Source: Moraxella sp. (GTDB lineage: Bacteria > Pseudomonadota > Gammaproteobacteria > Pseudomonadales > Moraxellaceae). From it: a stretch of DNA of 63,225 bases. The notes below the pieces were generated by a model. That model made no database searches. It was not told the origin of the DNA and saw nothing but the letters and a program-made list of their open reading frames with translations. The stretch lies in contig JAUMUJ010000008.1 in the NCBI GenBank assembly GCA_030530785.1, forward strand, positions 1 through 63,225. Reading direction: 5' to 3'. The position numbers and the translations under genes were made by a program. The stretch's first letter is position 1; each line of letters starts with the position of its first letter. Below, piece by piece: positions 3,315 through 20,028 of the stretch.

Positions 3315-3977
3315 TCAATTTGTTTTTAAATATACCACACAACGTTCATCGGACAGCTCTGGCACTTTAATGGGCTTGACGTCAATGTGCCAATCTGTCA
3401 GATTTACCACATCATCATCGGTGGGAACTTTACCTTTCATCGCATAAAGCATACCGTCTGTCTTTAAGTACGGCTTGGCAAGAGCAACAAAATCATCTAA
3501 ACTGGCAAAGGCACGAGACGTGATGACATCAAACGCCCCGTCAAAGTCTTCTATGCGACTTGCCACAGGGGTCAGATTGGTCAGCCCCAACTCACCCACC
3601 ATCTGGCGGATAAAACGTATTTTTTTGCCATTACTATCAAGGGCAGTAACGTACCAATCAGGTCGCATGATGGCGATGATGACAGATGGTAAGCCCGCCC
3701 CCGTACCAACGTCAAGCACACTCATGCCTGATTTGTCAGCAAAAGGCAAATCTGCCACAACTGCCAAACAGTCCAAAATGTGCTTGATAAAAGCATCCTT
3801 TGGGTCAGTAATGGCGGTCAGATTATATGCCTTTGTCCAAAGCAGTAAATTGTCCAAATAACTTAGTAGCTGATGGATTTGAATTTCACTAAATGATAAA
3901 TTTAGCAACCCAGAATATCTCTTTAAATCATTGGCAAAATCATCAGCATAGGGAGATATTTTATGATAATGTGTCAT
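3315..3977 (-). CDS. rsmG: 16S rRNA (guanine527-N7)-methyltransferase RsmG (GidB)
   Basis: A 220-residue Rossmann-fold methyltransferase that modifies G527 of 16S rRNA. The SAM-binding motif is 'MSVLDVGTGAGLPSVI', followed by 'VTALDSNGKKIRFIRQ' and the 'VITSRAFASLDDF' motif typical of GidB. It heads the rsmG-parA-parB block, an arrangement common near the replication origin, although dnaA and mnmG are not in this window. The upstream start is preceded by a weak GAGAAAA ribosome site. Confidence 0.96.
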   Translation of the reverse strand: MTHYHKISPYADDFANDLKRYSGLLNLSFSEIQIHQLLSYLDNLLLWTKAYNLTAITDPKDAFIKHILDCLAVVADLPFADKSGMSVLDVGTGAGLPSVIIAIMRPDWYVTALDSNGKKIRFIRQMVGELGLTNLTPVASRIEDFDGAFDVITSRAFASLDDFVALAKPYLKTDGMLYAMKGKVPTDDDVVNLTDWHIDVKPIKVPELSDERCVVYLKTN

Positions 3978-6136: not shown

Positions 6137-8506
6137 ATGACCAATCAGTTTACCTCTTATCGTCTGCCCCCTACCGCCCTAAAACGCTGTACTGACACCA
6201 CCGCCCTACCCAAAGACAGCGACCATGCCCCCATCATGCCCGCCACATTTGGGCAACGCCGTGCCGTCAATGCCATACAAACTGCTCTTGACATCAAGGC
6301 AAACGGCTATCATGTCTATGCAATGGGCGAAAATGGACTGGGCAAACGCACACTCATCACTCATCTGCTGACCGAGCGAGCCAAAAACGAACCGACACCA
6401 CCCGATTTGGTTTATGTACATAATTTTAACATACCACGCAAGCCCATTGCACTGACACTACCCAGCGGACAAGGGGTAGTATTCGCCAAAGACGTACACA
6501 AACTGTGGCACAAATTATACCAAAAAATTATCAACAAATTTAACAGTATCAGCTACCAAAATAGCGTTAGCACCATCAAGCAATCCGCCCAAAAACAAGA
6601 AAATCAGCTGATTGACGACATTAATGCCACCGCAAAAAAACATAACTTAACCCTACTGCATTCAACCAACCAAAGAGCGGTATTTACCCCCATTGATGAT
6701 AAACAACCGATTGATGATGTCATCATTGATAAATTACAAAAAAAACTGACCAAAATCAATATCGCACTCGATGATTTGGAAAATGATGTTAATCAACAAA
6801 TTGACGAACTTCATAAAAATATTACCAGCAAAATCATCACGCCATTATTTTCCCCACTCATTAAAAAATACTGCCCCGATGATAAAAACCAAGCACAACA
6901 AAAAATCCAGCAATACCTTAAAGATTACCAACAAGACATCATAGACAACGTATTATTTATCGTAGAATACGATGAAGATTTTATGCTAAAAACGGTTAAT
7001 GATACTCCAAACCGATATCATGTTAATGTGGCGGTCAGTCATACACCAAATAGCGGTTCTCCCATCGTCTTTGAAGATATGCCAACCTACCCTAATCTTT
7101 TGGGTCATATAGAATACATTACTCAATTTGGCACAACATTGACAGATGCCAGCATGATACAAGCAGGGGCATTACACCAAGCTAATGGCGGATATTTATT
7201 ATTAGAAATGTCTGCCTTATTAGAATACCCTTATACTTGGCAAGGCCTAAAAAGAGCCTTACAATCTAAGCGACTTAATCTATCCAGCCTTGAACAAATG
7301 CTGACTTTAACAGGCTCAGTTTATTTAGAGCCTGATGATGTGTCTTTATCCGTCAAAGTGATATTGCTTGGTGAGCCTGATTTATATTATGATTTACTGG
7401 AATTTGAGCCAGATTTTAGTGGTCTTTTTAAAATTAGAGCCGATTTTAATCATACCCTACCTAGAAATCATGATGGGGAATTATTTATTGTTCATAAAAT
7501 ATCAGACATGGTAAAAAAACAAAACTTACCAATATTTGATGCCACTGCTTTTGGGGCAATATTAGATGAATTGTCTGTTTATGCCGATAACAAAGACAAG
7601 TTAGATTTTCACAGCGACCGATTATTACGGCTTGTGTCAGAATCAGCAAGACAATTTTATTTATCCAATAATGACCATAAAACCGTTAATGCATTTCATG
7701 TAAAACAAGCCTTGGCTGACATGAAAGAGCGAAAAGGCTATTTAAAAGAACTGTATTGGCAAGAAATCCAAAACGGACAACAACTCATCAATACCACAGG
7801 GCAAGCAGTCGGACAAATCAATGCTTTAACCATCATCGCCCATGCCGACAGCGAATTTGGTTTGCCTGCCCGCTTGACCGCACTCATCGCTCCCAAGTTT
7901 GGTACAGGCGAAATTTTAGACATAGAACGAGACGTGGAGCTTGGCGGAAGTCTGCACGCTAAGGGAATGCTCATCATGACGAGCTTTTTACGCTCATTAT
8001 TTAGTCAGTTTACTGAGCTTAATTTTTCAGCAAGCCTTGCCTTTGAGCAAAGTTATAACCACATTGATGGCGACAGTGCCACCCTTGCCGAGTGTGCCGT
8101 GTTGCTGTCCGCCCTTGCTAATGTACCAATAAATCAATCGCTTGCAATCACAGGCTCTATGAATCAACTTGGAGAAGCTCAGGCGATTGGCGGTGTGAAT
8201 GAAAAAATCATTGGCTTTTTTAATGCTTGTTTTGAGCGTGGACTTAACGGCGAGCAAGGTGTGATTATTCCAAAAACAAATATCGGACAGCTCATGCTTC
8301 CCGATAATATCGTTGAGGCGGTAGAACGTGGCGAATTTCATATATATGCAGTGAGTAGCATTTATGAAGCGTTGTTTATTTTGACCGATATGCCCATTTA
8401 TGATAAAAATAAAAAAGGCGATTATAAAAAGCATACGCTGTTTGGCAAAATTGTCAGTCGGCTTATGGCGTGGGAAGATAACGAAAAGAATATTGATAAA
8501 AAATAA
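6137..8506 (+). CDS. Lon-like ATP-dependent protease (LonB/YcbZ-type, AAA + S16 domain)
   Basis: A 789-residue protein with an N-terminal AAA region whose P-loop reads GENGLGKRTLI (residues about 64-74). A long alpha-helical insertion rich in Lys/Asn/Gln (about 120-260) follows, then the ATPase core, and a C-terminal Lon protease domain. The catalytic dyad is visible as Ser647 in DGDSATLAE and Lys690 in GGVNEKI, 43 residues apart as in Lon. Such proteins are probably cytoplasmic quality-control or regulatory proteases, and substrates are unknown. Codon use in the middle third is more AT-rich than in the flanks. The gene stands alone, with a long hairpin terminator behind it. Confidence 0.88.
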   Translation: MTNQFTSYRLPPTALKRCTDTTALPKDSDHAPIMPATFGQRRAVNAIQTALDIKANGYHVYAMGENGLGKRTLITHLLTERAKNEPTPPDLVYVHNFNIPRKPIALTLPSGQGVVFAKDVHKLWHKLYQKIINKFNSISYQNSVSTIKQSAQKQENQLIDDINATAKKHNLTLLHSTNQRAVFTPIDDKQPIDDVIIDKLQKKLTKINIALDDLENDVNQQIDELHKNITSKIITPLFSPLIKKYCPDDKNQAQQKIQQYLKDYQQDIIDNVLFIVEYDEDFMLKTVNDTPNRYHVNVAVSHTPNSGSPIVFEDMPTYPNLLGHIEYITQFGTTLTDASMIQAGALHQANGGYLLLEMSALLEYPYTWQGLKRALQSKRLNLSSLEQMLTLTGSVYLEPDDVSLSVKVILLGEPDLYYDLLEFEPDFSGLFKIRADFNHTLPRNHDGELFIVHKISDMVKKQNLPIFDATAFGAILDELSVYADNKDKLDFHSDRLLRLVSESARQFYLSNNDHKTVNAFHVKQALADMKERKGYLKELYWQEIQNGQQLINTTGQAVGQINALTIIAHADSEFGLPARLTALIAPKFGTGEILDIERDVELGGSLHAKGMLIMTSFLRSLFSQFTELNFSASLAFEQSYNHIDGDSATLAECAVLLSALANVPINQSLAITGSMNQLGEAQAIGGVNEKIIGFFNACFERGLNGEQGVIIPKTNIGQLMLPDNIVEAVERGEFHIYAVSSIYEALFILTDMPIYDKNKKGDYKKHTLFGKIVSRLMAWEDNEKNIDKK

Positions 8507-10120: not shown

Positions 10121-10611
10121 AGATTTTTAAAAAGAAAGTTAGCGTATTAGGAATACTGGCAATATGCCTATTTTCATCGCTAAGTTTTGCAGGTGGAGAT
10201 AGTTATTATATTAAAATCAATCAAATCCAAACGCTTGCCAACACAAACACATCATTTATCTTGTATCTTGAAAAATTATCTCCCGAACCGAATTATCAAA
10301 ATACATTCAGTGGTTGCAAAAATGTAAAAATTACGGTTGATTATAAATTTAAAGAAAATAAAATCCGCCAATTTTTATTATATATTCAAGCATTATTTGG
10401 TATTAACTCTGGATTTCGTCAAGGCGTTAAACAATTAAATGACAATATCATCAAATTAAATCATCAGCTAACCCAAAACCCAAATGCCATTTATGAAACG
10501 CATGATATAGAAGCCTTTTATCCTGATAAAAATAACAAATGTCATTTTTATAGTAAAAACTTAGAATTATATGATGATAAAAAAGCATATATTCAGTTTT
10601 TTGTAAGATAA
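10102..10611 (+). CDS. Putative secreted protein, AT-rich orphan
   Basis: A 169-residue protein that starts inside the end of nth (19-base overlap) behind AAGGATAAGGA, a good ribosome site. It has a basic N-terminus and a hydrophobic segment ending in SLSFAGGD (residues about 10-31), suggesting a signal peptide. Two cysteines (SGCKNVK and NKCHFYSK) remain in the mature part. I recognise no family. Its base composition is far more AT-rich than nth, and matching uptake-signal-like nonamers lie on either side of the nth/orphan pair, so transfer is plausible. Confidence 0.6.
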   Translation: MGGFGVKIFKKKVSVLGILAICLFSSLSFAGGDSYYIKINQIQTLANTNTSFILYLEKLSPEPNYQNTFSGCKNVKITVDYKFKENKIRQFLLYIQALFGINSGFRQGVKQLNDNIIKLNHQLTQNPNAIYETHDIEAFYPDKNNKCHFYSKNLELYDDKKAYIQFFVR

Positions 10612-10738
10612 CGTGATGGAAAACTTGCTAAAATATTACACGCCGACATGATATTTATATTTCTTACCACATTCTACAAGCGGTGCGATTTTTCCCATTC
10701 ATGGCATATCCAAAAATTAACATACCACCAACAAAACC

Positions 10739-10779
10739 GCCCACCCCATTAAGTCTTTAACCCAAAAAGGTGGGCTTTT
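10739..10779. terminator. Bidirectional terminator between the orphan gene and metH
   Basis: The inverted repeat GCCCACC (10739-10745) / GGTGGGC (10769-10775) is flanked by AAAA on the left and TTTT on the right, and sits between convergent genes. Confidence 0.55.
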
Positions 10780-10791
10780 GTTAATCATCGG

Positions 10792-13700
10792 CTACTGTAA
10801 ATTGGGATTTAGCCATTTCTCGGCGGTCGCCCTATCCCACCCTTTACGGCGAGCGTAGTCTTCTAACTGGTCATCGCTGATTTTACCGACATTAAAATAG
10901 GTGCTGTCAGGGTGGCTATAATAAAAGCCCGACACGCTAGATGGTGGGTACATCGCATAGCTTTCGGTCAGATAAGTCCCGATGGTGGCGGTGGTATCTA
11001 GCCAGTCAAATAACGTGCCTTTTTCGGTGTGTTCAGGGCAAGCAGGATAGCCTGGTGCGGGACGAATGCCGACATATTTTTCCTTTATCAGCTCATCATT
11101 GGTCAGGTGTTCGTCCGCTTGATAACCCCACAGCTCTTTGCGGACTGTCTCATGCAGTTTTTCGGCAAAGGACTCGGCAAGGCGGTCGCAAATGGCTTGC
11201 ACCATAATGGCATTATAATCATCGCCCTTTGCCTTATACTCATCGGCAAGCTCTTCTGCCCCAAAGACAGACACGGTAAATCCACCCAAATAGTCCGCCT
11301 GACCACTGTCAGCAGGTGCGATAAAATCCGCCAGCGAATAATTGGGCTTGCCCGTTACCTTGTCTGACTGCTGACGCAAATGCTCAAAGGTAAAGACACG
11401 CCCATCATCGTCCACCGTAACGGTATCCGCCCCTGTGCGACTGGCGGGCGAGAGTTTGACCACCGCTTTGGCGGTAACGAGCTTTTCATCAATCAGCTTT
11501 TTAATCATCGCTTGGGCGTTATCAAATAAATCCCGAGCTTCTGCCCCCACCACGTCATCATCAAAAATCTTGGGATATTTACCCACCAAACCCCACGAAA
11601 TAAAAAACGGCGTCCAGTCTATATAGGGTAGCAAATCGGCAAGCGGATAATCATCATAGACAATCTGTCCAAGTTGGTTTGGCACAGGTGGGGTGTAGCT
11701 GTCCCAGTTGGCTTTAAAACCAAGCTCTATGGAGTCGGCATAGGACAATTTGGCGGATTTGGGCTTACGATTAGCTAGGCGTTCTCGCACTTCGGCATAC
11801 TCAGCACGCACTTCATTGATAAAGACATCACGCTTATCCTTAGATAATAAAGTCGTAACCACACCCACCGCACGGCTGGCATCTGCCACATAGACCACCG
11901 CATCGTTTTGGTAGTTAGACTCTATCTTGACCGCCGTATGAGCCTTAGACGTGGTCGCCCCACCGATGAGTAAGGGCAAATGAAAGCCCTGCTCTTGCAT
12001 TTGTTTGGCGACATAGACCATCTCATCAAGGCTTGGGGTAATCAGTCCCGACAGCCCGATGACATCTACTTTTTCGTCTTTGGCAACTTGCAAAATCTTC
12101 TCGCACGGCACCATCACACCCAAGTCCACCACGTCATAACCATTACAGCCTAAAACCACGCCCACGATGTTTTTGCCGATGTCGTGTACGTCGCCTTTGA
12201 CCGTCGCCATCAGCACTTTGCCCTTGCTCTCGCCTGCCACTTTTTGGGCTTCAATGTAGGGGTTTAGCCACGCCACCGCCTGCTTCATGACACGGGCGGA
12301 TTTGACCACTTGGGGTAAAAACATCTTACCCGCCCCAAACAAATCACCCACCACGTTCATGCCGTCCATCAAAGGCCCTTCAATGACATCTAAGGGGCGT
12401 GGGTATTTTTGGCGAGCCTCTTCGGTGTCTTCGTCAATGTAGGTGGTAATGCCTTTAACTAGGGCGTATTCTATGCGTTTTTCTACCGTCTCATTACGCC
12501 ACGCTAAGTCGGCTTTGGTGTCTTTTTTACTTGCCCCTTGATGGTAATTTTCGGCAACTTCCATGAGATGCTCGGTGGCTTCATTACCACTTTCGCCTTG
12601 ATTACGGTTTAAAATCACATCTTCAATGGCCTGCCTTGCCACAGGGTCAATGTCGTCATACAGCTCTAACATGGCAGGATTGACAATGCCCATCGTCATG
12701 CCGTTTTTGATGGCATGATACAAAAACACCGCATGAATGGCTTCACGAATGGGATTACCCCGAAAACTAAACGACACATTAGACACACCGCCCGATACCA
12801 TCGCATTAGGCAGATTATCAGTAATCCATTTTGTGGCGTTAATAAAATCCACACCATAGTTATTATGCTCTTCTATGCCTGTCGCCACCGCAAAGATGTT
12901 GGGGTCAAAGATGATGTCCTCAGATGGAAAACCCACTTCATCAACCAAAATATCATAAGAGCGTTTACAAATCTCAATCTTACGCTCTTCGGTGTCCGCT
13001 TGTCCTACTTCATCAAATGCCATGACAATGATGGCAGAGCCATACTTTTGGCATAATCGGGCTTTGGTAACAAACTCATCATAACCCTCTTTTAGGGAGA
13101 TGGAGTTTACGATGGGTTTGCCTTGTGTGCGTTTTAAGCCCTCTTCTATGATGTCCCACTTAGATGAGTCAATCATTATCGGCACACGGCTGATGTCAGG
13201 CTCAGAAGCGACCAAATTCATAAAATGAACCATCGCCTGCTTAGAGTCTAGCATACCCTCGTCCATGTTAATGTCCACGACCAAAGCTCCGCCTTCTACT
13301 TGGTCTCGGGCGACATCTAGGGCTTCGGTGTATTTTTCTTCTTTAATCAGTCGTAAAAATTTGCGAGAACCTGTTACGTTGGTACGCTCACCGACATTGA
13401 CAAATAAGCTATCACGAGTGATGTTAAAGGCTTCAAGCCCTGACAGACGACACGCAGGCTCTATGGTGGGCAAGAATCTTGGGGGGTATTTTTCTACCGT
13501 TTCACGAATACGGCGGATATGCTCAGGCGTTGTGCCACAGCACCCACCCACAATGTTTAACAGCCCATCTTTGGCAAAGCCGTCTAGCATACCTGCTGTC
13601 TCATCTGCCGTCTCATCGTATTCGCCAAATTCGTTGGGCAAACCTGCATTAGGGTGAGCGGATATGTGGGTCTCTGATACGTCCGATAAGGTCTTGATGT

Positions 13701-14592
13701 GCGGTTTTAATGCATCCGCCCCCAACGCACAGTTTAGCCCGACAGAGATGGGCTTGGCATGACGCACCGAATTATAAAAGGCTTCTGCTGTCTGACCTGA
13801 CAGCGTACGCCCTGATGCGTCCGTAATCGTGCCACTTATCATAATCGGCAACTCATAACCGATGTCATCAAACACGCCCAACACCGCAAAAATCGCTGCC
13901 TTAGCATTTAACGTATCAAAAATCGTCTCAATCAGAATGATGTCCGCCCCACCTTCAATCAAAGCAAAGGTCGCTTCACGATAATTATCGGCAAGCTCAT
14001 CAAAGGTTACGTTACGATAGGCAGGGTCATTAACATCGGGCGATATGGAGCAAGTGCGAGACGTTGGACCTAGCACACCTGCGACAAATCGTGGCTTATC
14101 GGGGGTTTTTGCGGTATATTCATCACAGGCACGGCGAGCAAGACAGGCGGACGTTTTATTTATCTCATAGACCAAATGCTCCATGCCATAATCCGCCATT
14201 GAGATTTGTGTGCCGTTAAAGCTGTTAGTCTCAATGATGTCCGCCCCTGCATCTAGGTAGGATTTATGAATGGCGGATATGATGTCAGGCTGGGTCAGCA
14301 CAAGTAGGTCGTTATTGCCCTTAACTTCCCGACCAAAATCAGCAAATCGCTCACCCCGATAATCTGCTTCGGTTAGTTTATAATTTTGAATCTGCGTCCC
14401 CATCGCCCCATCTAGGATTAAAATCCTTTTGCCAAGCTCATCTGTCATGCGAGCTTTGGCAGTCTTTTGGACATCACGATATGGCAGGTCGCTTGGGATT
14501 TGTAATCTAAAATTATCAGGATTATGGGCTTTGTGGGCGGTGGTTGGTTTGGCGTGATTATCACAGCCACAGGTGTCAGAGTGAACGCGCAT
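10792..14592 (-). CDS. metH: Cobalamin-dependent methionine synthase
   Basis: A 1266-residue four-module enzyme that moves a methyl group from methyl-tetrahydrofolate to homocysteine. Visible in order are the homocysteine-binding domain with zinc ligands (GLNCALGAD and [10 protein letters not shown]), the pterin-binding domain ([16 protein letters not shown]), the cobalamin domain with the base-off histidine motif ([26 protein letters not shown]) and the C-terminal reactivation domain ([15 protein letters not shown]). The N-terminus carries about 40 extra residues including CGCDNH. It is divergent from topA. No cobalamin riboswitch was recognised in the roughly 220-base gap. Confidence 0.98.
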
Positions 14593-14752
14593 GATGTTTG
14601 GCTTTTAATTGGCTAAATGGGGCATTATAACAGATACTTAGATTTATTAAAAACACCGTATGTCATCTATGTTTAAAATTTGTGATGAATTTTTAATAAA
14701 AAAGATTATGTTAATTAAATCATTTTTTCACTTGACAATCACCAAACAGCTA

Positions 14753-14781
14753 TTGACAAAATCCCCTTTACCCCCTATAAC
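14753..14781 (+). promoter_or_regulatory. Likely topA promoter
   Basis: TTGACA (14753-14758), 17-base spacer, TATAAC (14776-14781), about 32 bases before the topA start codon. A second TTGACA stands about 20 bases upstream. Confidence 0.7.
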
Positions 14782-14813
14782 TATAAAAAGAACTCAATTT
14801 ATTAAGGCACGTC

Positions 14814-17417
14814 ATGACATCTGCAAAAAAAACAAACACCGCCCCATCTGCCAAAGGCAAATCACTCGTCATCGTAGAATCCCCTGCCAAAGCCAAGACC
14901 ATTAACAAATATCTGGGGTCAGGCTATATCGTGCGTTCTAGCGTGGGTCATGTTAGAGATTTGCCCGTCTCAGGCACGTCCAAAACCGAAAAAGCAGATG
15001 AGACGGGGCTTTCTCGTGAACAAAAAGCCCAAAACGCCTTGATTCGCCGTATGGGGGTCAATCCTGAGAACGACTGGCAGGCTCATTATGAAATCTTGCC
15101 CAACAAAACCAAAGTCATCAAAGAACTCAAATCACTCGCCAAAAGTGCCGACATCATCTATCTGGCGACCGACCTTGACCGTGAAGGGGAAGCGATTGCG
15201 TGGCATTTAAAAGAGGTCATCGGCGGAGCGGACAGCAAATACCGCCGTGTGGTCTTTAATGAGATTACCAAATCTGCCATTACGGACGCTTTTAACCACC
15301 CTAGCACGCTCAACATGGACAGAGTAAACGCCCAGCAGGCACGCCGTTTTTTAGACCGTGTGGTCGGCTTTATGGTTTCACCCCTACTGTGGGCAAAGGT
15401 GGCTCGTGGCTTGTCAGCAGGGCGTGTGCAGTCTGTCGCCACCCGCCTTGTGGTGGAGCGTGAGCGTGAGATTCGTGCCTTTACCCCGACCGAATATTGG
15501 CAAATCCATGCCGATACCCTAAGTGGGTCAAAAGACAGCATTTATCTAGAAGCCGTCCGCCAAGATGGCAAAGAGCTAAGCCTTGCTAATGAGCATGAAG
15601 CAGAGACGGTTGTTGAGATTTTAAAGACCAACCCCTTTATCATCTGCCACCGTGAACAAAAACCGACCCAATCCAAGCCGTCCGCCCCCTTTATCACATC
15701 CACTTTACAGCAGTCAGCCAGCACACGGCTTGGCTTTAACGTCAAAAAAACCATGTTACTCGCCCAACGCCTATACGAAGCAGGTTATATCACTTATATG
15801 CGTACCGACAGCACCTTTTTGAGTACAGATGCACTTAATGGTGTGCGGTCGTACATTGAGACCAATTACGGCAGTCAATACCTACCCACATCGCCCAATT
15901 TTTATGGCAACAAACAAAACGCCCAAGAAGCCCATGAAGCCATTCGCCCATCTGATGTGTCGGTGTTGGCGGTCAGCCTAAAAGACATGGAAAGCGATGC
16001 CAGACGGCTTTATGAGCTGATTTGGCGACAGTTTGTGGCGTGTCAGATGACCCCTGCACAGTATCTGTCCATGACCTTGACCGTCTCATCTGGCAACGTG
16101 GAATTAAAAGCAAAGGGGCGAGTCATGACCTTTGACGGCTACACCAAAGCCCAGCCCACCAAAAGTGATGATGTGCTACTGCCCGATGTCCAAGTGGGCG
16201 AAACACTCACTGTCAATGACATTATCCCAAGCCAGCATTTTACCAAACCGCCTGCTCGCTACACCGAAGCCAGCCTTGTCAAAGAGCTTGAAAAACGTGG
16301 CATTGGGCGACCGTCCACCTATGCGTCCATCATCTCTACCATTCAAGAGCGGGGCTATGTTAAGACCGAAAACAAACGTCTATTTGCCGAAAAAATGGGC
16401 GACATCGTAACTGACCGCTTGATGGGCAGTTTTCCTGACCTGATGGATTATACCTTTACTGCCAACTTGGAAAACAAACTGGACCACGTGGCGGACGGGG
16501 ACGTGCCTTATAAGACGGTGCTTGATGAGTTCTATGGCGATTTTAAAGACAAATTAGAAACCGCCAAAGCCAAAGACGGCATGAAACCCAACAGTCCCAC
16601 CGATGTTCCCGACATTCATTGCGACCTGTGCGACCGCCCCATGCAGATTCGTACAGGGGGTACGGGCGTGTTTTTGGGCTGTACAGGCTATAACCTACCA
16701 CCAAAAGAACGCTGTAAAGGCACAAAAAATCTCATGGCGGTAGAAGCCTTCACAAGCCAAACGGCAGACGATGGCACGGACGAGATTTTAGCCTTGCTTG
16801 AAAAAAAACGTTGCCCAAAATGCCACACAGCGATGGATGGCTACATCGTGGACGGTGGGTTAAAATTACACGTGTGTGGCAATAATCCAGACTGCGATGG
16901 TCATTTGTTAGAAAAAGGTGTGTTTGACACCCAAAAAGGCGATGACACACCCACCATAGACTGCGACAAATGCGATGGGCAAATGGAGCTAAAAACGGGG
17001 CGATTTGGGGCGTATTTTGCCTGCCAAAAATGCGACAACACCAGAAAAGTCCTAAAAAACGGGCAACCTGCCCCACCCCGCATGACGGCTATCCCTATGC
17101 CACACTTGCGTTCGGCAAAATTTGATGACCATTATGTCCTGCGTGAAGGGGCGGCGGGGCTATTTTTGGCAGCATCTAAATTCCCCAAAATCCGCGAAAC
17201 TCGCCCACCCAAAGTGGCAGAACTTAAAGCCATACAAGGTGAGCTTGACCCCAAATTTCACTACCTGTTATCTGCTCCGACCACCGATGATGATGGCAAT
17301 CCGACCATCTTACGTTGGTCTCGCAAAAATGCCGAGCAATATGTCGGCTCTGAAAAAGACGGCAAAGCCACCAAATTTGCATTGGTATGGCGAGATGGGG
17401 CGTGGGTTCAGGCATAA
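14814..17417 (+). CDS. topA: DNA topoisomerase I (type IA)
   Basis: An 867-residue enzyme that relaxes negative supercoils. The Toprim domain is at the N-terminus ([32 protein letters not shown]). The active-site tyrosine is Tyr328 in [11 protein letters not shown]-terminal zinc-finger-like repeats include [21 protein letters not shown] and [16 protein letters not shown]. The start follows AAGGCACGTC. It is divergent from metH and precedes an accessory gene pair by about 85 bases. Confidence 0.97.
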
Positions 17418-17501
17418 AACTTGCAGTCTTATGACGTGCTTATATCAAACCAATGTAAGCAACTCTTGCATTGGTGATTTACTGTTTTTAGGATTAGACA
17501 A

Positions 17502-18551
17502 ATGAAATTTTCTGTATGCAAAAAATGCTGGCAGGTTTTTGATGACATCTCTTTATCTGCCTGCCAAAAATGTGGGGGGGGGGGGGCCCCCCCAGTGCTG
17601 TATCCTGCTGTTGATTTTTGCCAAAAGCTACTGACCTCTTTAAAACAAGAGACCATTAAAAACAAACAACTAACCAAACAAAATAACGAGCTGACCGCCA
17701 AACTCAGCGATTTAGAGTTCTCTTATCAAATGGTAGCACATACAGATACAACCCAAAACGCCATGATACATCACGATAAATCACAACACATTGATTTATC
17801 TAAGTCAGACAGCCTAGCAAGCCCAGCACAGCACCAACCTTTATCGTTATATTTTACCAAAAAACACATCAAACCCACCTTTGACTATGAAGCAGTTAAT
17901 GCTTCGGGCTATTATGACGAAGCTGGATTCATTATAGGGAGAAATTACACCCTGCTTAGACGATTTTTATCTGAAATTAAATCAGCTTACCAAAAAACAT
18001 ATAGAAACGGCACCAATTTTGATTTAAGTACATACAACCAATACGATCAAATCTTTATCCATAAAACCTTAAAAGACTTTTATACCCACGGGCTGTTTTC
18101 AGAATTTAGATATGATAAAAAATTAAAAAAAGCCCACATCGCTCTACAAAACGCCGAGCCTGTCCGTCAATTTTTTATGGGCGGGTGGCTTGAGTGGTAT
18201 GTGCTATCGGAAACCCTTGAAAGCATTCAATCCCACAAAAATCCACCTTTATTTTCCTGTGCCAAAAATTTAAAAATACAGCTTTTGAACGGCGACATAC
18301 ATGAATTGGATTTTGTATTACTGAATTCTTATCAGGAATTATTTGTCATAGAGTGCAAAACAGGCAATTATCGCCAAGATTTTAATAAATACTTCAGACT
18401 GTGCCAAAAGTTATCCATAGGCACCAAAAATTTTGCCATTTTAGCAACAGACATTAACCAAGAACAGGCAAAAACCATGAGTGCGATGTATGGTATAAGA
18501 ATGCTGTCTTTAGATGATGTTTCCCATTTTATTAAACTCATGTTAGGATAA
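17502..18551 (+). CDS. Zinc-ribbon / coiled-coil / PD-(D/E)XK nuclease-like protein with internal G13C7 tract
   Basis: A 349-residue protein. Residues 6-24 form a C-x2-C-x11-C-x2-C zinc ribbon. Residues about 47-72 are a Lys/Gln/Asn-rich coiled coil. The C-terminal third shows a PD-(D/E)XK arrangement: Glu231 in GGWLEWYVL, Asp270 in ELDFVLL, and Glu284/Lys286 in FVIECKTGNYRQ. This resembles the Card1/Can2 (DUF1887) nuclease domain; the substrate is unknown. Just after the last zinc-ribbon cysteine the DNA holds 13 Gs followed by 7 Cs, read as GGGGAPP. Changes of one or two bases would shift the frame and stop translation early. The downstream NYN gene starts 3 bases after its stop, so they form one unit. 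AGGAT precedes the start. Confidence 0.75.
   Translation: MKFSVCKKCWQVFDDISLSACQKCGGGGAPPVLYPAVDFCQKLLTSLKQETIKNKQLTKQNNELTAKLSDLEFSYQMVAHTDTTQNAMIHHDKSQHIDLSKSDSLASPAQHQPLSLYFTKKHIKPTFDYEAVNASGYYDEAGFIIGRNYTLLRRFLSEIKSAYQKTYRNGTNFDLSTYNQYDQIFIHKTLKDFYTHGLFSEFRYDKKLKKAHIALQNAEPVRQFFMGGWLEWYVLSETLESIQSHKNPPLFSCAKNLKIQLLNGDIHELDFVLLNSYQELFVIECKTGNYRQDFNKYFRLCQKLSIGTKNFAILATDINQEQAKTMSAMYGIRMLSLDDVSHFIKLMLG
17574..17593 (+). repeat. Homopolymer tract G13 followed by C7 within a coding sequence
   Basis: Thirteen Gs (17574-17586) run directly into seven Cs (17587-17593) at codons 25-31 of the nuclease-like gene. The last seven Gs and the Cs are a perfect palindrome. Such tracts are typical sites of slipped-strand length change. 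As given, the frame is open. Confidence 0.95.
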
Positions 18552-18554
18552 ACC

Positions 18555-19625
18555 ATGAAACTTGCCGTTTTAATTGATGCAGATAATACATCTCATAAGA
18601 ATATAGGACTTGTGCTACAAGAAATTGCTAAATATGGCGTGCCAATCGTCAAGCGTGTCTATGGCGATTGGAGTAGTGAGATTGATGAAAACGGCAAACC
18701 AACCAACCGCCTACACGTTTGGCGCGATGTTTCGCTATCGTATGCCATTACGCCTGTTCAGCAGTTTGCCTACACTAAGGGCAAAGATGCCACCGACATG
18801 ATACTTATTATTAATGCTATGGACTTGCTGTATGGCAATCAGTTGGACGGTTTTTGCATCATATCAAGCGACAGCGATTTTACACCGCTTGCCAGTCGCA
18901 TTCGTGAAAGTGGCTTAACGGTTTTTGGTTTTGGTAAAAAACAAACACCAAGCCCCTTTATCAATGCCTGTGATAAATTTATTTATATAGAAAATTTATT
19001 AGAAAATGACATTAACGAAATGCCTAATGATAAAGAAAATTTATCAAAATTAGCAGAAAGAAATAAAATGATGGACAACGCAAGCATTTCATCAAAAGAC
19101 AATACTAAGCAATCATCTGATGACACCACTCAAAAACCAACAGCCACGCCCAATCAACACATCAAAATAGACGAGCCAACTTTACAACTGATTTATAAAT
19201 CCATTAAAGACATTGCAGATGACGATGGTTGGGCAAATTTATCCACACTAGGTAATCATTTAGCAACCATTAAGCCTGATTTTGACACTAGAACTTATGG
19301 GCGTGCCAAATTATCAGGGTTATTGCAAGCATTGGATTTGTTTGAGATAAAACTAGAAAGCTCACAAAAATTTGTTAGAAAAAAACCAAGTTTTGCCAAA
19401 GTGTTAAAAATTGTTCATGACACAATGATAGATTATCGTGGTTTGAACGAATGGGCTTTTATCAATCCATTAGCAATTGAAGTTTCCAAAAGAAATCCAA
19501 CTTTTAACCCTAAAACTTTTGGTTATCAAAATATCCAAAGTATCATTAAAGCCATTGATAGCAAGTATTTTGAATTCAACGAAAATAAAACACAAATTAA
19601 ACTATTGTCAATAAAGGCGAAATAA
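18555..19625 (+). CDS. NYN-domain putative ribonuclease with two C-terminal OST-HTH/LOTUS domains
   Basis: A 356-residue protein. Residues 1-150 form a NYN (PIN-like) nuclease domain, with the acidic residues D8 and D10 (LIDADNT), D78 and D81 (KGKDATDM), and D106 and D108 (ISSDSDFTPLAS). A polar linker follows. Residues about 205-276 match the OST-HTH/LOTUS pattern (PDFDTRTYGRAKLSGLLQAL), and about 278-352 look like a second, weaker copy (PTFNPKTFGYQNIQSI). The family (LabA-like/MARF1-like) is associated with RNA binding or cleavage. It follows the nuclease-like gene by 3 bases and is probably translationally coupled to it. The 3' part is AT-rich. Confidence 0.85.
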   Translation: MKLAVLIDADNTSHKNIGLVLQEIAKYGVPIVKRVYGDWSSEIDENGKPTNRLHVWRDVSLSYAITPVQQFAYTKGKDATDMILIINAMDLLYGNQLDGFCIISSDSDFTPLASRIRESGLTVFGFGKKQTPSPFINACDKFIYIENLLENDINEMPNDKENLSKLAERNKMMDNASISSKDNTKQSSDDTTQKPTATPNQHIKIDEPTLQLIYKSIKDIADDDGWANLSTLGNHLATIKPDFDTRTYGRAKLSGLLQALDLFEIKLESSQKFVRKKPSFAKVLKIVHDTMIDYRGLNEWAFINPLAIEVSKRNPTFNPKTFGYQNIQSIIKAIDSKYFEFNENKTQIKLLSIKAK

Positions 19626-19677: not shown

Positions 19678-20028
19678 ATGAAAAAAATCGCCCTAGCATT
19701 CACAGCCATTACCCTTATCTTGACGGGCTGTAACAGTACCAACTCCGCCAAATCCACCACCAGTTTTACGCCTTATAGCCAAAACTTCCTGTGTGATAAC
19801 GGTTTGTCGCCAGTCATTCGCCACATCAATGACAGCCAAGCCACCATCACCCTAGAAAACACGACCACCACCTTAGACATTGCCGTATCTGCATCAGGTG
19901 AACGCTATGTCACTAATACAGGTCTTTTTGGACATGGCGGTGCGTGGCACCAAAAAGGTAACATGGCGGTCTTTGATTACAAAACCATGGCAGGCAATCC
20001 TATTAGCACCAACTGCACCGCAGAATAA
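19678..20028 (+). CDS. MliC-like lipoprotein (C-type lysozyme inhibitor family)
   Basis: A 116-residue protein with lipoprotein signal MKKIALAFTAITLILTGC (lipid on Cys18). The mature part follows the MliC pattern: FLCDNGLSPVIRHINDSQATITLENTTTTLDIAVSASGERYV, then a Gly/Trp-containing turn (GHGGAWHQKG), and a final cysteine that pairs with the first. MliC proteins protect peptidoglycan against host C-type lysozyme at the outer membrane or in the periplasm. A good AAGGAG site precedes the start and a strong terminator follows. The gene stands alone. Confidence 0.8.
   Translation: MKKIALAFTAITLILTGCNSTNSAKSTTSFTPYSQNFLCDNGLSPVIRHINDSQATITLENTTTTLDIAVSASGERYVTNTGLFGHGGAWHQKGNMAVFDYKTMAGNPISTNCTAE

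Follow-up and report, generated by a model that had tools for sequence, protein, structure and literature searches.

Introduction

Nucleases of the Can2/Card1 type are a known cutting arm of type III CRISPR signalling. Can2 cuts supercoiled DNA and RNA when cyclic tetra-adenylate (cA4) binds to its CARF domain, and it protects Escherichia coli from plasmid and phage (PMC7969007). The same nuclease family includes VC1899 (PDB 1xmx), an orphan CARF nuclease described as not tied to a CRISPR system (PMC7969007). Here we analyze a stretch of Moraxella DNA of 63,225 bases (the window; contig C5 of a 1.9-Mb draft genome, G000, with 57 contigs and 86.9% completeness), in which a gene on the + strand at 17502..18551 (gene 1) encodes a protein of 349 residues that is, judged by its sequence, a CARF-less relative of Can2 and Card1, and that differs also from VC1899, which retains the CARF domain. 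Three bases beyond its stop codon, again on the + strand, begins gene 2 (18555..19625, 356 residues). A first-pass annotation had found both open reading frames and had read them as a coupled pair of nucleic-acid-cleaving proteins, perhaps a defence or RNA-control unit.

Our own reading, which we think somewhat better than an even bet, is that gene 1 encodes a phase-variable, solitary nuclease of the Can2/Card1 type without CARF, most likely serving defence, and that gene 2 is independent of it. In place of the CARF sensor there would be a zinc ribbon and a linker, the latter probably forming a coiled coil that joins two subunits, so that the enzyme would recognize its target directly, be it nucleic acid or a protein bound to nucleic acid, and would await no cyclic-oligoadenylate signal. 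Its PD-(D/E)XK domain would nick or cut DNA, RNA, or both with a metal ion, while a G/C homopolymer would slip by slipped-strand mispairing, shift the frame, and thereby silence or restore the entire protein in some of the cells. Such an enzyme would most likely serve to defend the cell against phage or other nucleic acid from outside, and switching would hedge against what the enzyme costs; gene 1 would simply sit between topA and an independent NYN-LOTUS gene without forming a two-gene system. The observations beneath this proposal are the domain homology, the conserved residues, the absence of CARF homology, the empty sites in relatives, and the tracts and reading frames in the assemblies. 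In the portions of the open-licence literature available to us, we found no description of a zinc-ribbon, CARF-less Card1/Can2 nuclease or of a phase-variable one; new here is a Can2 cutting module with another N-terminal half that, in one genus, is under probable random switching.

A putative Can2-type nuclease with a zinc ribbon in place of CARF

Several models place gene 1 near Can2 and Card1. The protein matched PADLOC CARF_PDDEXK (E 4e-13, residues 167-291) and scored 24.6 bits against Pfam Card1_endonuc (PF09002, DUF1887), just under the cut-off of 26.4; at E up to 1, this Pfam model was matched in 9 of 10 family members (best 1.6e-8). Can2 (7bdv) was the top solved structure, at E 2.5e-5 with the single protein and 4.8e-8 with the family profile, which also matched solved Card1 and VC1899. 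When the gene 1 profile was aligned with nine CARF-Can2 proteins, 222 columns matched between residue 114 and the C terminus (probability 98.6, E 7.9e-16). Because the alignment begins at residue 114, more than the nuclease core is common to both: the shared C-terminal 236 residues (114-349; 17841..18551, + strand) hold the E/D/E-x-K site of DUF1887 proteins together with a wider middle region.

The active site is well preserved. E231, D270, E284, C285, and K286 show no variation in a family alignment of ten rows and are intact at 11 of 11 other loci by tblastn, and the E231/D270/E284-C-K286 arrangement, which the first-pass annotation had picked out from one sequence, aligns with that of Can2. 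That annotation had named poor conservation of the catalytic residues across the family as grounds for giving up its proposal; for gene 1, those loci show the reverse.

The N-terminal half is another matter. Gene 1 has the C-terminal PD-(D/E)XK domain with E, D, and E-x-K that marks Can2/Card1 but not their N-terminal, cyclic-oligoadenylate-binding CARF domain: no CARF homology was found, and residues 1-113 were left unmatched in the profile alignment with CARF-Can2 proteins. These residues, which occupy the position of CARF in Can2, consist of a zinc ribbon and a variable linker. The ribbon, C6-x2-C9 ... C21-x2-C24 (codons at 17517..17573, + strand), had also been noticed in the first pass, and its four cysteines are at least 90% conserved in the family alignment, in which the tenth row, a fragment, does not reach that end. 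Pfam DZR_2 matched the gene 1 protein at E 0.012, below its cut-off, and six of the ten family members matched Zn_ribbon_8 when E values up to 1 were admitted (best 4.4e-5). We regard this domain anatomy as well supported, and from it we predict zinc binding and nuclease activity. Since there is no CARF domain, control would have to come from elsewhere, and the zinc ribbon is, by analogy only, the obvious candidate for binding the target. Beyond the exchange of CARF for a zinc ribbon and linker, gene 1 differs from Can2 and Card1 in having no adjoining type III genes, a branch of its own, and, in Moraxella, a homopolymer.

Homopolymer tracts in the Moraxella copies

Directly after the Cys24 codon, gene 1 contains a run of 13 G (17574..17586, + strand), a candidate slipped-strand phase-variation tract that the first-pass annotation did not mention. 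No other G or C run in the window exceeds 7, the length of the next longest, and base frequencies alone would yield an expected 0.0005 runs of 13 or more. In the window copy, gene 1 is in frame across the tract and open. A run of seven C (17587..17593, + strand) abuts the G13, and the two could pair within the coding sequence as a G/C stem; no C run follows any of this genome's 14 other G/C runs of 9 or longer.

Two Moraxella relatives carry long tracts out of frame. In the copy from genome G017, the zinc-ribbon frame enters a G12 two bases after the Cys24-equivalent codon and then meets a stop, and the remainder is open in another frame. The sequence flanking the tract on both sides is homologous between the window and G017 copies, so this is not a false join. 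In the copy from G014, an ATG preceded by AAGGA leads into a C9, which lies before the zinc ribbon, and then into a stop, with zinc ribbon and nuclease open in another frame; this copy is ambiguous, as a GTG at the zinc ribbon could start an open frame. Both features expected of a phase-variable locus are thus present, namely a long homopolymer in the coding region (G13, with G12 and C9 in the relatives) and a mixture of in-frame (window) and out-of-frame (G017, G014) copies, but the copies come from different species and not from one strain. The G tract stands at nearly the same codon although about half of the protein has diverged, which suggests that it has been maintained. Taken together, the three assemblies indicate that gene 1 is probably phase variable in living cells.

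Tracts of this kind are not confined to gene 1. In the window genome, G/C runs of 9 or longer occur 15 times, and the nine frames beside them that were scanned include glycosyltransferases of families 8 and 1, a DUF4062 protein, and a MotA/ExbB-like frame. Another tract-bearing frame encodes a fused N6-methylase/specificity protein resembling type IIG enzymes and is interrupted between its two specificity regions by a G12 (3643-3654) and a G13 (3778-3790; locus L137, G000:C33:15000-23000); it is likely a phase-variable restriction enzyme. At least one run of 10 occurs in 17 of 22 Moraxella genomes, such tracts being common in some and absent from others. Upstream of the G017 copy, after rsmE, A10 and G13 runs lie beside a run of N that marks a scaffold gap (L035, about 7099-7123). 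In Moraxella catarrhalis, simple-repeat loci able to change expression include mid/hag with its poly-G, modM, and uspA1, and the putative loci include a truncated restriction gene and an endonuclease III gene preceded by a heptanucleotide repeat (PMC7302503). Like these loci, gene 1 carries a repeat that could change expression; it differs in kind, as no solitary Card1-like nuclease is named in the available portion of that account (PMC7302503).

Distribution and phylogeny of the gene 1 family

Members of the family are few and scattered. Homologues of gene 1 occur in 3 of 22 Moraxella genomes (the window genome, G017, and G014), and matches were found in 3 of 57 related genomes. Among 369 genomes of the class there were seven full- or near-full-length members, the window copy included, and one fragment (G294, E 2e-26); where the proteins behind weaker matches in that sample were read, they proved to be CARF proteins or members of a zinc-less branch. 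Further members are G759 (among 398 genomes of the phylum), a Cardiobacteriaceae copy, and G803, and in another genus a gene-1-type nuclease is present in 3 of 18 genomes. A scan of genome contigs recovered no relative with the single gene 1 protein as query and three loci with the alignment.

The family alignment and tree omit the Cardiobacteriaceae pieces, the G294 fragment, and G803. In the tree, which was built from the C-terminal 245 residues and holds 8 of 9 CARF-Can2 rows together with two Moraxella CARF nucleases, the CARF proteins split from all others with support of 100/100. The zinc-ribbon rows form one group, whose support of 91/92 is under the program's threshold, and the zinc-less rows form the other group on the non-CARF side. 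The CARF nucleases of Moraxella type III loci group with the CARF proteins, on long branches whose placement the program reports as unsure, and nothing in these comparisons suggests that gene 1 was recently derived from the genome's own Can2 by exchange of a domain.

The zinc-less, CARF-less sister branch was seen at loci L070, L147, L055, L057, and L062. Those of its genomes noted in the class sample (G245, G409, and G202, the last two from one genus) all have strong Cas10 matches.

Within Moraxella, the G017 copy is the sister sequence of gene 1 (support 100/99; 50-57% protein identity). The three Moraxella genomes place gene 1 in three different surroundings; the G017 copy stands beside rsmE and the G014 copy upstream of an aldehyde-dehydrogenase-like gene, both names coming from our reading of the translations.

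Gene 2 as a separate neighbour

As first annotated, gene 2 is predicted to be a NYN-LOTUS protein with two OST-HTH domains, and Pfam matches bear out both parts (NYN, E 1.2e-35; OST-HTH, E 6.6e-18 in two stretches). It matches the structures 2kpm, the bacterial OST-HTH structure named in PMC2848206, and 2kzv. The six aspartates that had been proposed for the NYN active site fared unevenly. Searched by tblastn at 29 loci, one of which (L028) gave no match and two of which (L009 and L030) are the same gene, D8, D10, D81, D106, and D108 are retained at every locus whose alignment reaches them (24 to 27 of the 28 loci with a match); the remaining one, D78, is replaced by N in 22 of 27 loci and so is not a catalytic residue of the family. 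Gene 2 has the D-x-D-N motif, D81, D106-x-D108, and OST-HTH domains (one or two in such proteins) that define bacterial LK-nuclease/NYN plus OST-HTH proteins, with the same N-terminal NYN domain, two OST-HTH domains, and conserved acidic residues, and we see no notable difference; by these features it is an ordinary NYN-OST-HTH protein.

Evidence on the supposed pairing comes from relatives in which one gene is present without the other. In the window, topA (14814..17417, + strand) is followed by a terminator-like hairpin of 11 pairs (17449..17475, + strand; a pattern match only), and gene 1 with 84 leader bases fills the interval between topA and the NYN gene. In G002, G018, and G001, which hold the best NYN matches (more than 80% identical), topA runs straight into the NYN gene and gene 1 is absent; a single base separates the topA stop from the NYN ATG in G002 and G018, and the junction in G001 is the same. 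G010 (NYN match 64%) has its NYN gene in another place, and gene 1 is missing there too. At the other fetched NYN loci, most with flanks of 1.5 kb, no gene 1 was found.

Conversely, among 15 gene-1-type loci (12 of zinc-ribbon type and 3 zinc-less), tblastn of gene 2 found a NYN gene in the fetched flanks of one, the window itself, several of the loci having short flanks owing to contig ends. The two genes also differ in frequency, with NYN matches in 24 of 57 related genomes compared to 3 of 57 for gene 1. The available sections of a survey of bacterial LK-nuclease plus OST-HTH genes report no conserved neighbourhoods with known RNA-processing systems and propose stand-alone proteins, perhaps RNA-degrading enzymes (PMC2848206). 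That the two genes make up a defence or RNA-control operon is a reading that their 3-base spacing and shared strand invite, since they are probably cotranscribed here, but the single adjacency, the three empty sites, and the unequal genome counts largely refute it, and we find it scarcely credible. The first-pass annotation had itself proposed counting adjacencies and had accepted that homologues found mostly apart would tell against a pair, which is how they are found; the same three lines of evidence rule out a coupled two-nuclease system as a candidate. Separate histories for genes 1 and 2, with no system between them, are well supported by the genome comparisons. Adjacent genes for nucleic-acid proteins cannot safely be read as systems, and the three empty sites show that the pairing here is accidental.

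Three further features concern the NYN gene and its surroundings. After it, an MliC-like lysozyme-inhibitor lipoprotein is encoded in the window at 19678-20028, and a similar small lipoprotein, judged by its translation, follows the NYN gene in G002, G001, and G018. The NYN-LOTUS gene that follows topA in G001 is split into three fragments spread over two frames (L040, 7700-9000). A second NYN gene of the window genome (L034, G000:C6:1924-2346) has a stop inside the matched stretch.

Decay, CRISPR, repair, or defence

Several observations weigh against a switchable defence nuclease. The tract is peculiar to Moraxella: among the ten copies from elsewhere, the longest run of G or C across the gene region measures 3 to 5 bases, so switching is not a property of the family. 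Each species is represented by one assembly, and metagenome assemblies can miscount homopolymers. Three of 12 zinc-ribbon-type loci are not open (a frameshift in G017, an in-frame stop in the Cardiobacteriaceae copy, and the G294 fragment), the G014 copy, read from its likely ATG, falls out of frame, and a contig end truncates the G231 copy. A verified defence gene lay within about 5.5 kb at 2 of 11 loci, a count that comes without a matched control set. Finally, four of the ten family genomes that were tested carry Cas10, detected by a strong Pfam match in G000, G014, and G237 and by PADLOC in G231, which leaves room for a CRISPR link.

The broken copies make decay a possibility, in which gene 1 would be a decaying foreign gene and its homopolymer an accident or an error of metagenome assembly. 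The frameshift, the stop, and the fragment all fit such a history. It is harder to square with catalytic residues that remain intact at all 11 other loci, with a G tract placed within two bases of the same position in two copies that share only about half of their protein residues, or with homologous sequence on both sides of the tract, and we consider decay very unlikely.

In a second alternative, gene 1 would be an effector that answers to the type III CRISPR system of its genome even though it lacks a CARF domain. The window genome does have a type III-B locus on another contig (L167, G000:C18:17000-34000), where Cmr1, Cas10, Cmr3, Cmr4, and Cmr6 are accompanied by a CARF5 protein and a canonical CARF-PD-(D/E)XK nuclease. 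A search of its 17 kb for direct repeats of at least 24 bases found none. The Cas10 count across family genomes and the Moraxella comparison (2 of 3 gene-1 genomes versus 2 of 19 others, Fisher p 0.07) lean the same way. With one common, strict threshold (E below 2e-15, weaker matches to the Pfam model probably including GGDEF proteins by our own reading), however, Cas10 was present in 2 of 8 member genomes of the class sample, G294 included, versus 35 of 369 (p 0.17), and the difference became 3 of 8 versus 36 of 369 (p 0.03) when G231 was counted, a genome added after it had been inspected individually. Cas10 had no match in G017, G406, G310, and G338 and only weak ones, below the cut-off, in G278 and G759. 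Unlike Can2 and Card1, gene 1 is not encoded with type III genes: there were none among the 10 open reading frames around it and no Cas10 among 84 neighbours of 11 gene-1-type loci. Given this, and the missing CARF homology, the CRISPR tie seems to us distinctly unlikely.

The same 84 neighbouring open reading frames (gene 2 omitted) at 11 loci were scanned for defence genes with PADLOC at E up to 1e-10. The two verified neighbours were a type IIG restriction enzyme (G338) and the Cas9 of a type II locus (G237); matches to DEDDh, DpdF, Cas3, mad2/mad3, PbeA, PDC-S48, and exonuclease families are taken to be generic matches to housekeeping proteins. So few verified neighbours give no support to an association of the family with defence islands, a location that the first-pass annotation had thought worth checking. 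In G237, the zinc-ribbon nuclease gene (L066, G237:C90, 7485-8501) precedes cas9 and cas1 (10354-15407) by about 1.9 kb, and a further small open reading frame follows cas1.

Nor did a phage or plasmid origin of gene 1 gain support. Phage and plasmid collections gave no match, a pattern-based scan of viral contigs gave no confirmed match, and no PHROGs family was assigned to gene 1. One relative (P0005) has a weak PHROGs endonuclease match (E 0.004), and gene 2 matches phrog_37744 (E 1e-61).

A solitary gene in mostly housekeeping surroundings, as we read the neighbouring translations, might instead encode a nuclease for DNA repair, recombination, or the handling of DNA taken up by competent cells, and the Can2 nuclease domain has been superimposed on EndoMS (PMC7969007). 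Such a role is difficult to reconcile with so patchy a distribution, both in Moraxella and in the other genus surveyed, and with the three unlike settings in Moraxella; on/off switching of a repair enzyme would also be odd. We regard it as unlikely. Defence by gene 1 alone is a possible role, and it is the one we infer because the patchy distribution, differing surroundings, and probable switching fit it.

Implications

A broader proposal, which we offer tentatively and at less than even confidence, is that the zinc-ribbon proteins are an innate, self-sensing nuclease family in which a zinc ribbon has taken the place of the Can2 sensor, so that recognition and cutting would reside in one protein. 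Moraxella would then have made this enzyme subject to random on/off switching, once at the least and perhaps on two independent occasions, with a G tract after the zinc ribbon in one case and a C tract before it in the other, to give a switchable, single-gene defence.

The existence of a solitary, CARF-less branch suggests that another trigger drives the same cutting module there. Should gene 1 be switched randomly in Moraxella, this would be a case of phase variation in a nuclease that does not belong to restriction-modification, and it would provide a simple test of what such nucleases cost their hosts and of what they protect them from.

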